A stretch of DNA of 29,068 nt from a virus, in the IMG/VR virus record IMGVR_UViG_3300047496_000111, positions 1 to 29,068 of that record. One strand, 5' to 3'. Position 1 is the stretch's first letter. Each line of letters begins with the position of its first letter. The translations under genes and the position numbers were made by a program. Positions 1,974 to 29,068 of the stretch are shown here, one piece after another. A model generated the notes under the pieces. It saw only the letters and a program-made list of their open reading frames with translations. It made no database searches and was not told the DNA's origin.

Positions 1974-2219
1974 TTATGCTTTGAGGGTTGAGAGATATGC
2001 TACCAGTTCGGGCTTTTGCAAAAAGCTGTCATCGACGCGGATAAAATAGACGCTGATCAGCCCGGTCATGGCCCATTGCAATGTGCGCGTCACCTCGCCA
2101 CGTTTTTCGGCACGTTGTACGGTGGCCAGATGCACACCGAGGAGGTCCGCCAGTTGCTCGCGTGTAATATCGAGCTTAACCCTGAGGGCTTTCAGGTCAA
2201 AGGGTACTGTTGTCTTCAT
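1974..2219 (-). CDS. XRE/Cro-like helix-turn-helix DNA-binding protein
   Basis: An 81-aa product whose residues about 10-42 match an XRE-type helix-turn-helix: LRVKLDITREQLADLLGV followed by HLATVQRAEKRGEV, the usual 'xxLTQeqLAxllGVsxxTVxRwE' arrangement. The C-terminal half (about 45-81) is unlike the DNA-binding part and may dimerise. The start at 2219 has AGGAGCGGACA upstream, and that site overlaps the stop of the preceding gene. It is the only clear transcription factor in the window and lies 400 bases from a promoter region packed with dyad sites, so self-regulation through those sites is a reasonable inference, not shown. Confidence 0.8.
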   Translation of the reverse strand: MKTTVPFDLKALRVKLDITREQLADLLGVHLATVQRAEKRGEVTRTLQWAMTGLISVYFIRVDDSFLQKPELVAYLSTLKA

Positions 2220-2228
2220 TGTCCGCTC

Positions 2229-2426
2229 CTACGCCATGGCCACGCGCAGATACTCGCGCGTGATTCGGTTTTTGAAAAGATGCTGGCCCACTTCGTCGCA
2301 CATATACATATAGCGGCCCGCAAAATTCGCAGCCTCCAGTTTGTCGCTTAAAGCCCCTGAGGCAATGGCCGCGGCAAAAGCCGTTTCCGGGTGAGTAAAA
2401 GGTATGTCATTAAAAATAGGTTGCAT
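2229..2426 (-). CDS. Small unknown protein, 65 aa
   Basis: I chose the ATG at 2426 because GGAGG precedes it by seven bases; an upstream Met at 2462 lacks a good site and would overlap the neighbouring gene. The product starts MQPIFNDIPFTHPETAFAAA and ends NRITREYLRVAMA. Features are an Ala-rich helix, two Met/Tyr pairs (RYMYMCDEV) and one Cys. It resembles the short 'MxPIFNDIPF' proteins found near phage regulators, but I cannot assign a function. It is two bases downstream of the operon's first gene. Confidence 0.65.
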   Translation of the reverse strand: MQPIFNDIPFTHPETAFAAAIASGALSDKLEAANFAGRYMYMCDEVGQHLFKNRITREYLRVAMA

Positions 2427-2428
2427 GA

Positions 2429-2581
2429 CTATGCCTCCATGCCGTTGAGGATGGATGCGCACTCAAGTTGGCGTACCAGCTCGCGGGCCCAAGCCAAGGC
2501 ATCGGCATCCTTGCCGCAATTTTTGTAAGCAATGGCTTTTGCCAGGCACTGATTTACTTTCGAACGGTCAATGTTAGACAT
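2429..2581 (-). CDS. Small unknown protein, 50 aa, first gene of leftward operon
   Basis: Starts at 2581 with AGAGGATTT upstream, giving MSNIDRSKVNQCLAKAIAYK and ending CASILNGMEA. A longer in-frame extension to 2719 would run through the promoter and dyad sites and is very Cys/Trp/Ile-rich, so I rejected it. The product is likely two or three helices with three Cys residues. It sits about 50 bases downstream of the leftward promoter at 2629-2656. Function unknown. Confidence 0.6.
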   Translation of the reverse strand: MSNIDRSKVNQCLAKAIAYKNCGKDADALAWARELVRQLECASILNGMEA

Positions 2582-2628
2582 AATGTTAAATCCTCTTAGA
2601 GTTAAAATGCAAAACAAGTTGCAAGGCC

Positions 2629-2656
2629 AAGATAGCAGGTTATAGCATTTTGTCAA
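2629..2656 (-). promoter_or_regulatory. Sigma70-type promoter for the leftward operon
   Basis: On the minus strand TTGACA (2656-2651) is followed after 16 bases by TATCTT (2634-2629). This is a near-consensus host promoter pointing at the gene starting at 2581. A copy of the dyad (2642-2656) covers the -35 hexamer and part of the spacer, as an operator would. No experimental start site is known. Confidence 0.6.
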
Positions 2657-2948
2657 AATAAAAATAGCAACATGCCACATTTTTAAACAAAATGCTACTT
2701 TACGAGCGTTCAATTTCATGCAGCATGAACATATAACAGTAGTTTGGTGTGTGGCGGTGAGAGCGAGTTTGAGCCCTGTTTTTTGTCATACTGCAAACTA
2801 CTTAAAAAATTTCTATCAAAATATTTTTTTTTGTGTTTTGTAGCATGCTGTTACATGTAGCATTATGCTGTTGTTTTTAGGGCCGCACATGCACAAAATC
2901 TTTTAACTGCGATTTTTCTTTATGAACCTTATTAAAAAACTATAAGTA

Positions 2949-3020
2949 GTATAAGTAGTAAACTGGAACGCTGGCTCACTGGGGCTCCGAACTACTTACA
3001 TTTTTCCATACTACTTATAC
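2949..3020. repeat. 12-bp inverted repeat, TATAAGTAGTA family
   Basis: GTATAAGTAGTA at 2949-2960 is perfectly complementary to TACTACTTATAC at 3009-3020, with 48 bases between. An overlapping direct copy of TATAAGTAGT begins at 2941, and shorter ACTACTTA words occur at 2797 and 2991. This family differs from the GTAGCA dyads and sits in the gap between their clusters. Confidence 0.65.
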
Positions 3021-3023
3021 AGT

Positions 3024-3052
3024 TTGACGGTCGATGTAGCATTTTGTTTAAA
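3024..3052 (+). promoter_or_regulatory. Candidate rightward promoter overlapping a dyad
   Basis: TTGACG (3024-3029), a 17-base spacer and TTTAAA (3047-3052) point toward the late genes. The dyad at 3036-3050 lies in the spacer and -10. The first gene starts about 420 bases downstream, so any transcript would have a long leader containing the rest of the dyads. The hexamers are only moderate matches. Confidence 0.4.
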
Positions 3053-3471
3053 AATGTAGCATGTTGTCGACAAAATGTAGCATGTTGCTACATAGGTCAT
3101 ATAAGCCGAATAGCACATGAGTCTTAAATTGCGCAAATTGTTTAAAGTGCATGTAGCATCTTGTTACAAATAGCATTATGCTAGCTTAGTAGCAAATTGT
3201 TACTGCATAACTTTAGCGCGTTGCGACAAGTAGCATAATGTTACATTGTGCAAATTGTTACTGCAGCGGTGCCGGCGCGTAACTTGGGAAACATCGGGGG
3301 TAAAAAGGCGAAGCGATTTCTTTTTATTAACGTATCTTCAATCCCGCGCAATTTTCAAAATTTCACCGCGCAGAAGTATAAACACTTAAAACGCACCGCC
3401 TCCACCCCATAAATTTTCCACTTGCATCCCCGCGCCATATCGTTAAAATTAAATCTCACCTCGAGGTTCAC

Positions 3472-4005
3472 ATGAGCACAGACCGCGCCGAAAATTCAGT
3501 TGAGCTGACCGCGGTCGGGCCCACCATTCTTTGGCGCAACGCGTCAAACCAATACAAAGGGGTTGGGACAAGTAATCCGTTACCCGTGACGGCAAGTGGC
3601 GCAGTGAGTTTGGCAGGAGGAAACGCCAACATTGGTGTTGTGTACCTTGGGCAAAGCGCAACAGCCAGTGGGCCAATTTTGCGTTACAAACTTTTATCCG
3701 CAGCCTCGACAAACTCCACGCTGATACTTTCCGGGCAACATAAAGTTCTCGGGTACAGTTTCTGCAATACCGGGGCCAGCTTCGCCTTTTTAAAACTTTA
3801 CAACAAAGCAACAGCCCCAACGGTCGGCACGGACACGCCCGTTGAAACGATCGGCATCCCGCCAAACAGCACCGCGGTGTTATTCAACCCGATCGGGGTA
3901 TCGTATTCGCTGGGGATCGGGCTTGCGGTCACGGGAGGCTATGCGGACGCCGACACCACAGCCGTGACGGCGGGTCAGGTCATTGGAAGTTTGTTCTATG
4001 TCTAA
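3472..4005 (+). CDS. Probable virion-associated structural protein, 177 aa
   Basis: First gene of the rightward block, with GAGG five bases before the ATG. The product is beta-rich, Thr/Ala/Gly-rich and without Cys clusters or membrane segments. Its middle, residues about 90-145, has the pattern YSFCNTGASFAFLKLYNKA followed by TAPTVGTDTPVETIGIPP, which I know as a recurring phage beta-sandwich ('...YNKATAPTVGTDTPVLTI...') in small head or tail-surface proteins. The exact role is not known. It overlaps the next gene by eight bases. Confidence 0.65.
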   Translation: MSTDRAENSVELTAVGPTILWRNASNQYKGVGTSNPLPVTASGAVSLAGGNANIGVVYLGQSATASGPILRYKLLSAASTNSTLILSGQHKVLGYSFCNTGASFAFLKLYNKATAPTVGTDTPVETIGIPPNSTAVLFNPIGVSYSLGIGLAVTGGYADADTTAVTAGQVIGSLFYV

Positions 4006-4209: not shown

Positions 4210-4602
4210 ATGTCGACCCAGATGCCCGATAGCGCAGAACATAACGCAGGCGTGGATCCCGAACCCGCGGACACCCAGACGATCAACGTGCCGGATGAAG
4301 GCGGCAATTCGGACGTCAATTCAGCGGACGAAGAACCGGCGAGTGAGACGGACGACGAGGACCCTACGCCCCCGCTGGCCCCGACCCCAGCGGATACCGC
4401 CATTGGCACGACTGCAGTAACCACGAAGGATACGACGCCGGTGGTGCACGAGCTGAAGGTGAACACTACGGCAACCCAGACGGACATTGCGGTTAAGATC
4501 TTCCACGAAGCGGAAGGCTGGATTGTCAAGCGGCTTGTATTGACGGGCAAGCTGACATCGGCAAAATTGTCCGAGGTTCTGGCCGACGTTCGGAACTGGT
4601 GA
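4210..4602 (+). CDS. Unknown protein with acidic N-terminal half, 130 aa
   Basis: Starts at 4210 behind AAGGAGATACCC. A longer frame from 4180 lacks a good site. Residues about 5-75 are a disordered Asp/Glu/Pro/Thr-rich segment (SADEEPASETDDEDPTPP). Residues about 80-130 form a compact domain (TDIAVKIFHEAEGWIVKRLV, then LTSAKLSEVLADVRNW). The position two genes before TerL is where a small terminase subunit often lies, but there is no helix-turn-helix and I do not assign that role. Its stop overlaps the next start by one base. Confidence 0.65.
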   Translation: MSTQMPDSAEHNAGVDPEPADTQTINVPDEGGNSDVNSADEEPASETDDEDPTPPLAPTPADTAIGTTAVTTKDTTPVVHELKVNTTATQTDIAVKIFHEAEGWIVKRLVLTGKLTSAKLSEVLADVRNW

Positions 4603-4820
4603 TGGCGCGGCGCGAGTACCGTTACGTTAAGTCGTCGAATATCCAGGGCGTCGCGTACGATTACGACACGCGGGATATGCATGTCCAGTTTGTAAGCGGG
4701 ACGGAATACCGCTACGAAGGTGTGGATCCGGAGGATTACGACGGGCTGGTCAGCGCCGCGTCGCCGGGGCGATACCTCCATGACAATATCAAGGATCAGT
4801 ACAGCGCCACCCGGGTCTGA
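4602..4820 (+). CDS. KTSC-domain protein, 72 aa
   Basis: The whole product fits the KTSC domain (Pfam KTSC): YVKSSNIQGVAYDYDTRDMH near the N-terminus, then FVSGTEYRYEGVDPEDYDG and a C-terminal SPGRYLHDNIKDQY. The domain is common as a short stand-alone protein in phages and bacteria; its biochemical role is not established. I chose the ATG at 4602, which overlaps the preceding stop (TGATG); a GTG one codon earlier is also possible. It ends one base before TerL, so it probably belongs with packaging or early head genes. Confidence 0.85.
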   Translation: MARREYRYVKSSNIQGVAYDYDTRDMHVQFVSGTEYRYEGVDPEDYDGLVSAASPGRYLHDNIKDQYSATRV

Positions 4821-23300: not shown

Positions 23301-23373
23301 GGATGCCAAAGAAAAAGAACGCGAGCAAAAAGCGATGAAGTATAAAGCGCGGCAGGAAGGCACGACAAAATGA
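20347..23373 (+). CDS. Large internal virion / ejection protein, 1008 aa
   Basis: The longest gene in the window, in the place and of the size of podoviral ejection proteins that form a channel across the cell envelope. Residues 1-70 contain four DLLA motifs (4-7, 15-18, 23-26, 62-65) in a Pro/Lys/Ala-rich, disordered stretch. Near residue 230, HPSVKGKEGFITSTGRFVQR followed by DEAAKIA resembles a motif widespread in phage virion proteins. The remainder is mostly helical, with some hydrophobic segments (PTQLLLGLSGYHY). I see no lysozyme or peptidase motif. The stop overlaps the next start by four bases. Confidence 0.68.
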   Translation: MPTDLLAPAPAAPVDLLANKPKDLLAAKPAPIMPADKSKEVLNLFDPPSTLKPAISNDKPKDLLAPAQPRKAPTAKDKPWWISPVSAFNDVKDYVKRGVETGVKTAINPEKSKLPDNQADELAASMFDTPVPAGSGNRLMTDVKRPLGVAEAVTAPAGAMFHAGVSKPIERATGLKAEYTDLAQMFTPAGVAGAAGAIGRVKKAIGETEKIVGPAIRSGKRLLEGVDHEAIRAAHPSVKGKEGFITSTGRFVQRDEAAKIATQAKQLTKGTTTTLLHTSELKPDSAFQKGLKNIEKIFSPTTVSKSAKQTEGIVREARGTAEQRTAQASHEINSVAKEVNTASPQDQRNFVNYVETRSKGTKLKNPKLQKAADTVRDVYQRVRKQLEQSPHTDKMGFIQDYFVHQWKNHAKAQAFAAQWIAKAGNAKNTLKRSLPTIEDGLKAGLEPVHENPLDATLHYVGNMQNYLATKEINAAMKAQGMRKFFPKGKQPAGWVELKGPGNQVLYTAADAKKQKGAYAGINQAYAPEDAARVYNRYFGPGWTGPMGDVYRMGRALVNAPTQLLLGLSGYHYRLISNEATASAFAEGLGRAARGDIKGAAKSVAKGTPGIGGALAVRQGRRIEKAYLDPNSKDPVVRILTKAGARLTGLDRSMKASSADTLWESWRKGTTKAELAAGIKHIKDSDGPAQGAARTFGFAARNIGKLMDSAAYPLFAKTIPWIKNSVNYDGVADWMKAHPNASESEIVAAARDIVDSTDNRFGEMIQDNLFWDKKFKQTVQLMVLSVGWDLGTAREIIGGTKDLSKWISGSGELTPRAKYVIGAPIAHMLNASVYQYLKTGQGPQVPQDLVYPRTGGQTEESPGTPYAKAVPERLRLPSQMNDVLKAQRDPVAYLEDKMAPLWKIVGSMATNSDWRGDPISYQFEQNAPQGLQAYAGYLLDRTTPISVMNATKGQKTKSAIGPVEGIMGSNPAGMRDRDPAGFRKMMDAKEKEREQKAMKYKARQEGTTK

Positions 23374-24680
23374 AAATTTTAGTGATCGACAGCCAAGCTG
23401 CGAGTCTCGACTGGACCATGCGCTGTATGGCGGACGGGCACAAAGTAAAGTGGTATGTGCCACCGGACGAGAAAGTAAAGAACGTCGGCAAGGGCATCGT
23501 CGAACGCGTCGACGACCCCAGTGACTGGTATCGCTGGGCCGACATGATCTTTTTCTCCGACAATACCAAATATATTCTCTATGCCGATGCGTGGCGCAAG
23601 CAGGGCATTCCCGTCATCAGCGCCTCGGCGGAGACAGCGGACTGGGAGCTTGACCGTGATATGGGGCAGAAAGTGATGCAGACTGCCGGCATTGACGTGC
23701 CGCCGTTCAAACCCTTCACCGACTACGACGCGGCCATTGCCTATGTCAAAAAGACCATGGGGCGGTTCGTCAGCAAACCCAGCGGCTCAGCCGACAAAGC
23801 GCTGAGCTATTGCTCAAAGAGCCCCGAGGACATGGTCTATATGCTTGAGCGGTGGAAGAAGCTTAGCAAGTTGAAGACGCCTTTTGTACTGCAAGAGTTT
23901 ATTGCTGGGACGGAGATGGCGGTCGGCGCCTGGTTCGGGCCGGGCGGTTTTAGCCGAGGGTGGTGCGAGAACTGGGAATTTAAAAAACTCATGAACGATG
24001 ACAAGGGCGTGGCGACCGGCGAGCAAGGCACCATCCTGCGCTATGTGGCCAAGTCACATCTGGCCCGCAAGGTGTTGCAGCCGCTCGAAGATGCGCTGGC
24101 CAAAGCAAAATATGTCGGCTATATTGATGTCAACTGTATCATCGATGACGAAGGTAATCCATGGCCGCTGGAGTTTACCATGCGCCCCGGTTGGCCCACA
24201 TTCAATATCCAGCAGGCATTGCATGAAGGAGATCACGCCACATGGCTGATGGATCTATGGGAGGGCAAGGATGCCCAGAACTGGAAGATGAACACGGTCG
24301 CTGCTGGGGTGGTCCTCTCGATTCCCGACTATCCGTACTCACATCTGACCCGCAAGGAGGTGAACGGTGTGCCGCTCTACGGGGTAACACCTGCAATCGA
24401 GCCGTACTTGCATCTATGCGAGATGCAGAAGGGAGAAGCGCCGCACCGGGAGGGGGAGACGATCGCGAACAAACCCTGCTTCACGACGGCGGGGGATTAC
24501 GTGTTGGTGGTCAGTGGCACGGGACAAAGCGTGAGCGAAGCCACGAGGCAATCCTACAAGCGCTTAGAGAAATTGAGCCTCCCGAATTCCCCTATGTACC
24601 GGACGGATATCGGGAACCGACTGAAACAACAACTGCCCCTGCTGCAATCGAACGGGTACGCGACGGGGATGAGTTACTAA
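23370..24680 (+). CDS. PurD-like ATP-grasp ligase
   Basis: The 436-aa product resembles phosphoribosylamine-glycine ligase (PurD/GARS), which joins an amine and a carboxylate using ATP. A Rossmann-type N-domain starts MKILVIDSQAASLDWTMRC. The ATP-grasp part has FVSKPSGSADKALSY (K136), LQEFIAGTEMAVGAW (about 175-188) and GYIDVNCIIDDEG. The metal motif is EFTMRPG (E268); canonical PurD has Asn where Thr271 stands. The C-domain ends with YRTDIG (410-415), as in PurD. It is coupled (ATGA overlap) to the ejection gene, so it is expressed late. Purine synthesis is one option; ligation of an amino acid to another acceptor is another. The substrate cannot be told from sequence. Confidence 0.78.
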   Translation: MKILVIDSQAASLDWTMRCMADGHKVKWYVPPDEKVKNVGKGIVERVDDPSDWYRWADMIFFSDNTKYILYADAWRKQGIPVISASAETADWELDRDMGQKVMQTAGIDVPPFKPFTDYDAAIAYVKKTMGRFVSKPSGSADKALSYCSKSPEDMVYMLERWKKLSKLKTPFVLQEFIAGTEMAVGAWFGPGGFSRGWCENWEFKKLMNDDKGVATGEQGTILRYVAKSHLARKVLQPLEDALAKAKYVGYIDVNCIIDDEGNPWPLEFTMRPGWPTFNIQQALHEGDHATWLMDLWEGKDAQNWKMNTVAAGVVLSIPDYPYSHLTRKEVNGVPLYGVTPAIEPYLHLCEMQKGEAPHREGETIANKPCFTTAGDYVLVVSGTGQSVSEATRQSYKRLEKLSLPNSPMYRTDIGNRLKQQLPLLQSNGYATGMSY

Positions 24681-27451: not shown

Positions 27452-29068
27452 TTACAAGGCCGCTGTTGCAGGTTTTTCATCGTCGTTGGCCGGAGCCACC
27501 AATTGCGGCATCCCGTTGATTTCCGGATGATTCATGTTTATCTCCCAGACAAACACGCGGCTGCCGGGGTAGTCAGTGCCGGCCGCGAGCGTGACCTGTT
27601 TATTTTTGCTGCGCAAAACCCCTGCTTTTTGCAATTCCTGTGCCAGGGTGCCGGCGTGGTAGCCGGTTTTGCGCAGCCACTCGCGAAGAACCTGCTGTGA
27701 AATATACAAAGTGCCGGTATCTTTTTCGAGCCGCATGACGAGACGATGCGATGGGTAGCGCGTGACCTGAGCGGGCTTGCGAGGCAGGAAAGCGCTTTCG
27801 ACAACAAGGCAATCCATTATGGCTTCGGCAATGAATTCGTTTATTAGTTCGATCGGACGTTGACCCTCGAGATTTTCGGCGCGCGCGCGGGCGAACTCAA
27901 GCGCCCATTCCATTATCCGCTTTGTGTCAAAACTAAGCAGGCCGATGGCGTTCAAAATAAGCGCCGCCATGTGATTGCATGCCATCAGATAAACGATATA
28001 ACGGTCGCGTGCGGCAGTCTCAAGCAGCGTCTGGTAGTGCGTCACCAACGTATCAAGGGACGCCTTTACCCATTCGAACATCCCCGGCGTGGACATGATG
28101 GCGTGAATGAACTCGCGGCCCGCGATGCCGCAGTTGTCAAGCATGGCGCCCGTGATCTTCGAAAACTCTTTGAAGGCTTCCTTGTCCGTCGGGGCGGGCA
28201 CGCTGATCTCGAAGATCCGCGCCATGGCCCCTTGGTCGCTGCTGGTGCGGATAATGTCCGCGAGTGAGTGGTTCGAGGCGGAGATCATGAAAGTTTGAAA
28301 GCGATCGTTTTTATATGCCACCACCCCGGTGCGATCAGATCGATTTTTATCTTTGCCTCCAACGAAACGTTTGAGGCTTGCGGACTCCTTGTGCGGGTCG
28401 TTATTGCCCATCTCTTCCTCAAGCACAACGAGGTGACAAGCCTTAGTGATAATGTTGAACTTGGCATTTTCCGTATCCGCACCGGATACGGACAACGCAT
28501 CAAACACACCCCATACGCTGGCGGCCGCTTGCAACGTGTTGGTTTTGCCGAAGCCAGACCCTTGCGTATGCAGCGCGAGGACAGCGCCGCCGTCAGTCGC
28601 ACCCGCTACCAAGGACAACAAAGGTGCCGCAAAGCTGGTGATGAGGCCGAAGCCCATCGCCTCGAAGCCGGGGCGGAAAAGATTGTTCCCCGCAATGGAC
28701 CATGCTTGCCGCGAAGCATTCTTGGGCACCCGCATCGCCCGCTGCCTGGGTTCCAACGCCTCGTCGCCGTAAGCATATTCCGTTGCGCCTCCGCGGCGGA
28801 TAAGAGAGTTGCCGACAAGGAAAGCATTAAAATTATCTTTCCAGCCAAATTGTTCATAGCGAATTGCGTCCATCTTCTGTCCTTTCATTGCAATAGAGGC
28901 AGCGCGCACGTAGTATTTAAACAGCTTGGGATTAATGATTTCCGTGCAGTTGCTTCCCATAATCGAGAGCCACGCCGCGCCGTCAAAAGCTTCCCGAGAA
29001 ATTAAAAAATCGTGCCAGCCATTATGGGGATGATAAGCCATGAAGGAATACGATTCCTTGTTTTCCCG
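27452..29068 (-). CDS. DUF927-like P-loop helicase/primase-type protein, 5' end outside window
   Basis: Reading continues past the window end in frame (RENKESYSFMAYH...), so the Met at 29041 is probably internal and the N-terminal part is missing. The visible 538 codons contain Walker A QGSGFGKT (numbered from that Met, 160-167) followed by NTLQAAASVWG, and Walker B HLVVLEEE (203-210). A sensor-type FMISASNHS follows, and then an arginine-finger candidate in GAMARIFEI. The phrase GKTNTLQAAASVWG is characteristic of DUF927 proteins, which accompany primase domains in phages and plasmids. A winged-helix-like segment near the C-terminus (TLYISQQVLREWLRKTGYHA) may bind DNA. Role: probably DNA replication. 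Confidence 0.82.
   Translation of the reverse strand, partial: RENKESYSFMAYHPHNGWHDFLISREAFDGAAWLSIMGSNCTEIINPKLFKYYVRAASIAMKGQKMDAIRYEQFGWKDNFNAFLVGNSLIRRGGATEYAYGDEALEPRQRAMRVPKNASRQAWSIAGNNLFRPGFEAMGFGLITSFAAPLLSLVAGATDGGAVLALHTQGSGFGKTNTLQAAASVWGVFDALSVSGADTENAKFNIITKACHLVVLEEEMGNNDPHKESASLKRFVGGKDKNRSDRTGVVAYKNDRFQTFMISASNHSLADIIRTSSDQGAMARIFEISVPAPTDKEAFKEFSKITGAMLDNCGIAGREFIHAIMSTPGMFEWVKASLDTLVTHYQTLLETAARDRYIVYLMACNHMAALILNAIGLLSFDTKRIMEWALEFARARAENLEGQRPIELINEFIAEAIMDCLVVESAFLPRKPAQVTRYPSHRLVMRLEKDTGTLYISQQVLREWLRKTGYHAGTLAQELQKAGVLRSKNKQVTLAAGTDYPGSRVFVWEINMNHPEINGMPQLVAPANDDEKPATAAL

Follow-up and report, generated by a model that had tools for sequence, protein, structure and literature searches.

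The question raised by this locus is what purpose is served by 13–14 near-identical symmetric sites in a 620-base control region (2641–3262) that separates the leftward from the rightward genes in an uncultured phage. The window, meaning the whole stretch of DNA analysed, is 29,068 bp long and is the entire IMG/VR record, a fragment with both ends open. Profile searches of the record identify a tailed phage by gene content, with a rightward structural arm encoding a terminase, a portal-like head-tail adaptor, a major head protein, a tail collar protein and an endolysin, and with a leftward arm present at both record ends (small early ORFs at 1–2581 and a DUF927 primase-helicase at 27452–29041). 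Long relatives found through TerL or the major head protein are mostly 41–46 kb in length. One of them, G007, carries an exact repeat of 123 bp at its ends, which fits a complete and circularly closed sequence of 41.6 kb and implies that roughly 12 kb is missing from the present record; the missing part is probably most of the leftward arm. A TerL search of genome contigs did not find a host or prophage. The structural arm ends with a PurD-like (GARS) ATP-grasp protein (23370–24680) that is kept in relatives, and a KTSC-domain protein (4602–4820) directly upstream of the terminase gene is kept in most of them. Tandem repeats are present in the leftward arm of the record (1–170) and of relatives G001, G002, G003 and L042, and fall in Ala-rich coding frames in the record (AAAG repeats), G002 and L042. 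The features around the control region are as follows.

1974–2219, minus strand: candidate binder, an XRE-type HTH protein (81 aa) encoded by the third leftward ORF of the operon
2229–2423, minus strand: second leftward ORF, about 64 aa, no family match
2429–2581, minus strand: first leftward ORF, 50 aa, no family match
2629–2656, minus strand: predicted sigma-70-like leftward promoter, TTGACA-N16-TATCTT, with TG before the -10
2641–2699: putative operator cluster 1, dyads 2641–2657, 2663–2679 and 2683–2699, spacing 22 and 20
2738–3017: copies of ACTACTTA at 2797 (+), 2943 (-), 2952 (-), 2991 (+) and 3010 (+), with a degenerate copy near 2738 (-), in an inverted-repeat arrangement
2839–2872: putative operator cluster 2, dyads 2839–2855 and 2856–2872
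3035–3092: putative operator cluster 3, dyads 3035–3051, 3055–3071 and 3076–3092
3152–3262: putative operator cluster 4, dyads starting at 3152, 3169, 3188, 3229 and 3246, with a weak dyad at 3212
3472–4005, plus strand: first rightward ORF, structural arm, 177 aa, no family match

The consensus of the array is a 17-bp dyad, TGTAGCAWNWTGYTACA, that is essentially absent from the 29 kb record outside 2641–3262. The sites form clusters of 3, 2, 3 and 5–6, with neighbour steps of 22 and 20, of 17, of 20 and 21, and of 17, 19, 24, 17 and 17 bases; further weak dyads occur at 2574 and 3129. An earlier sequence-only reading had described about fifteen dyads spaced by 17–24 bases. The array is real and its spacing is borne out by the measured steps, but the count was slightly high, with 13 clear copies and one to three weak ones. 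The five copies that it listed with both arms intact correspond to the five exact matches to GTARCA-N3-TGYTAC in 29,068 bp, all of them in the array (2840, 3077, 3153, 3189 and 3230), so that the motif shows no dispersal over the record, a point which that reading had proposed as a check. Its perfect palindrome at 3075–3093 likewise agrees with the sequence, ATGTAGCA-TGT-TGCTACAT, which has perfect 8-bp arms. Allowing up to two mismatches gave ten matches, all within 2664–3244, compared with 2.3 ± 1.5 (largest 7) in shuffles. A palindromic EM search of 2582–3471, which was not seeded with this pattern and used 100 first-order Markov shuffles as control, recovered 12 sites with an objective of 99.3, against 26.3 ± 3.4 (maximum 34.4) for the shuffles, placing the palindrome score of the region ∼21 standard deviations above them. 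Palindrome searching also catches coding tandem repeats (in Ala-rich genes and others), and these were disregarded. The pattern search with shuffles and the EM search constitute the non-circular evidence for the array; a weight matrix built from the 13 sites gives 14 places scoring at least 12 in the whole record, all within 2550–3270, a count with some circularity, since these same sites went into the matrix.

Internal copies within the region suggest that the array grew through local duplications, some direct and some inverted. The left triple (cluster 1) is an inverted near-copy of the triple at 3035–3092, with 2668–2698 being a 97% inverted copy of 3036–3066, spacer included. In direct orientation, 2839–2869 is an 87% copy of 3152–3182 (31 nt), and a 16-nt stretch at 3192–3207 is repeated exactly at 3250–3265.

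The position of the array relative to predicted promoters bears on its function. The leftward promoter listed above, with its TTGACA starting at 2656 and its TATCTT ending at 2629, is the best minus-strand sigma-70-like match in the record (10/12, rank 1). As had been claimed, its -35 lies under a dyad: the 2641–2657 site covers both the -35 element and the spacer, and two further dyads follow upstream in two-helix-turn steps. On the rightward side, TTGCGA-15-TACATT (3221–3247) does lie inside dyads, but it is weak as a promoter and comparable to TTGCAT-16-TAAAAT (3422–3449) outside the dyads, and a plus-strand promoter scan produced no rightward candidate that stands out.

None of 40 TerL relatives has the exact dyad motif. 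Relatives at 50–62% TerL identity lack it, but several of them carry a dyad array of their own at the corresponding switch point. In three relatives (G005, G007 and G010) the array adjoins a leftward HTH gene. G005 has five TTATCACAAATTGTGATAA-type dyads (palindrome score 73.7, compared with 23.9 ± 3.5 in shuffles) in an array that begins where a leftward YdaS/HTH_3-like gene starts; G007 has TGTCATATGACA/TATGACA dyads beside an HTH_3 gene, with 10 of the 17 genome-wide half-sites within 345 bp; and G010 has TGTCAGAATGAC and GTCATGGTGA repeats, also beside an HTH_3 gene. A gapped-palindrome test was moderately significant for G002, marginal for G004 and G007, and not significant for G001, G003 and G008. 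Dyad arrays thus appear, from sequence comparison, to recur at this point in the group, being seen in some members. Conservation of the sites in related phages that keep the flanking genes had been put forward as a check on the array. The exact sites are not kept, but this is a weak test, because no relative found retains the leftward genes (2229–2581) next to the array. In a wider scan for adjacent dyads, 36 contigs were matched, of which a few lambdoid ones (L077, L048 and perhaps L067) are informative and several others are repetitive DNA. In L077 and L048, which are unrelated viral contigs, TAGCA-N3-TGCTA-type dyads adjoin a repressor gene that is CI-like as judged by eye, and the presence of near-identical dyads next to such genes supports the reading of the array as operators.

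Other elements were observed in the control regions of the group. By eye, a short TAACTTGGG...GGGGG-like element lies at ∼3275–3310, immediately to the right of the array and followed by an A/T run; it is common to the same place in relatives and is possibly a packaging or origin element. A GC-rich element of ∼120 nt (GGAACCGG...CCGGTTCC-like) lies upstream of the rightward genes in L013 (8180–8300), L015 (4820–4935) and the G004 control region; an Rfam search gave no match for it in L013 or L015.

The candidate binder named by the sequence-only reading was the XRE-like protein at 1974–2219, and as a candidate it is sound. It matches HTH_3 (E-value 3.8e-6) and a PHROG transcriptional repressor family (E-value 6.6e-6), is the only HTH_3 match found in the record, and is modelled as a lambda-repressor-like HTH fold (pLDDT 78). 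A structure search pointed to the folds of HipB, restriction-controller C proteins, Aca1 and CylR2, with Foldseek E-values of 0.1 or worse. The relatives speak against the assignment. The homologues of this protein in G005 and G007 are encoded by a gene separate from the HTH gene beside the dyads, and they have a nearly identical recognition helix although their dyads differ, so that in those phages the dyads are probably bound by a protein outside this XRE family. The recognition helix has diverged in the present record (VHLATVQRAEKRG). A search of viral contigs with the XRE protein returned no loci, as did one with the protein encoded at 1568–1963. Among the proteins of the record, the XRE protein is the most probable binder, with its chance of being the actual one put slightly below even; failing that, the array would be bound by a regulator whose gene lies in the portion of the genome that the fragment lacks.

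Control by a protein that recognizes symmetric sites, one of the readings offered earlier, is supported by the promoter overlap, the operator-like spacing and the phage-specific arrays in relatives. The layout makes it fairly likely that the array consists of operators for a small dimeric HTH regulator (Cro/CI-like) from the leftward early operon, which probably also controls the rightward side. Dimers would fill adjacent sites about two helix turns apart and, once bound, would block the leftward promoter, resulting in autorepression, while the right-hand clusters would also repress or time transcription that heads rightward, toward the structural genes. The many sites could make the switch steep and dose-dependent, and looping may take place between the inverted clusters at 2641–2699 and 3035–3092. 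An uncultured phage group would in this way gain a defined transcription switch point, together with a large natural operator array usable for tests of cooperative binding, and turnover of operator sequences at a fixed position among related phages would make regulator–operator co-evolution testable from sequence.

Alternative explanations for the array differ in what they make of its surroundings. Functionless repeats arising by chance or from low complexity might be expected in a region that is AT-rich and partly built by local duplication, but the excess over the first-order Markov shuffles, the symmetry retained in diverged copies and the promoter overlap allow this explanation to be practically dismissed. 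Clustered symmetric sites also resemble centromere clusters, and a partition centre, with a parS-like cluster in a plasmid-like prophage, had been among the earlier suggestions. It is unsupported and very improbable, since ParB_N (PF02195) was found in none of the 12 records searched (the incomplete record and 11 relatives; positive controls matched), the sites overlap a promoter and their sequence varies between relatives. The same 12 records, again with positive controls matching, contain no S24 (PF00717), tyrosine integrase (PF00589) or serine recombinase (PF00239) match; no lysogeny gene having been found, a lambda-like lysogeny switch is unsupported. If complete genomes of the group also lack lysogeny genes, the array would represent an unusual expansion of operators in a strictly lytic setting.

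A replication origin draws on a second repeat family, ACTACTTA, which was absent from the sequence-only reading and is interleaved with the dyads. All five exact copies in the whole record lie within 2797–3017, and no 8-mer exceeded four copies in 500 shuffles. The dyads or the ACTACTTA repeats would serve as initiator iterons, with opening beside AT-rich DNA and use by the DUF927 primase-helicase encoded in the leftward arm. The AT-richness of the region, the central position of the ACTACTTA repeats and their occurrence in both orientations are in keeping with an origin, as is the GC skew of five relatives treated as circular, in which the minimum is at or near the switch point and the maximum is near the convergent junction; the skew equally fits strand-biased coding, which switches at this point. 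IHF-consensus sites (WATCAANNNNTTR) are present in the control regions of G001–G005 and G007 (12 in six regions, compared with ∼0.1 expected per region), but the window has none, and IHF therefore plays no part in the explanations offered. Against an origin, iterons normally run as direct repeats in a single orientation, a predicted promoter is overlapped by the dyads and no initiator was identified in the record; an origin alone is considered distinctly unlikely. If there is an origin here at all, ACTACTTA is a better iteron candidate than the dyads. A combination of the two functions, with the dyads as operators, the ACTACTTA inverted repeats as origin and a regulator that also times replication, would account for the presence of two distinct, intermingled families of repeats in the region, and several relatives likewise possess another short repeat family in addition to their dyads; among relatives, the ACTACTTA sequence is retained only in G003, and there in part, and the combination is considered unlikely, though not negligible. 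(TAAGTAGTA also recurs in G003.) There is an outside chance of a more general arrangement, in which phages without detected lysogeny genes would carry a dense operator array and a separate inverted-repeat origin, one small early HTH protein would stop early transcription and time replication, and site and regulator would be replaced together at a fixed position.

With operators for a small dimeric regulator as the preferred reading, the array can be compared with known systems. HipB, the restriction-controller C proteins, Aca1 and CylR2 regulate their own operons via palindromic operators and use far fewer than 13–14 sites; in the structure search the 81-aa protein weakly matches the folds of these small XRE autorepressors, whereas the array has a far higher site number. 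The stoperators of mycobacteriophage L5 are similar to the array in that many copies of one repressor site occur in a phage. However, L5-type sites number more than 20, are asymmetric 13-bp sequences scattered genome-wide and are bound by a monomer (PMC9283540), whereas the sites described here are symmetric and confined to 2641–3262, and this class was rejected. Lambdoid phages have six 17-bp operators in lambda and five 16-bp operators in N15 and phiKO2, the repressors of the latter two also being without a cleavage site (PMC4997575). Like lambdoid CI/Cro operators, the array has symmetric sites of ∼17 bp that are grouped, closely spaced and overlap an early promoter, and clusters 1 and 3 are likewise triples. 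Of the divergent promoters, the predicted leftward one is overlapped and the rightward candidates are weak. The differences are that lambdoid operators number five or six rather than 13–14, and that a CI-type S24 repressor and an integrase were not found in this incomplete record. By its layout, the array thus appears most like a lambdoid operator region, albeit one that is unusually rich in sites.
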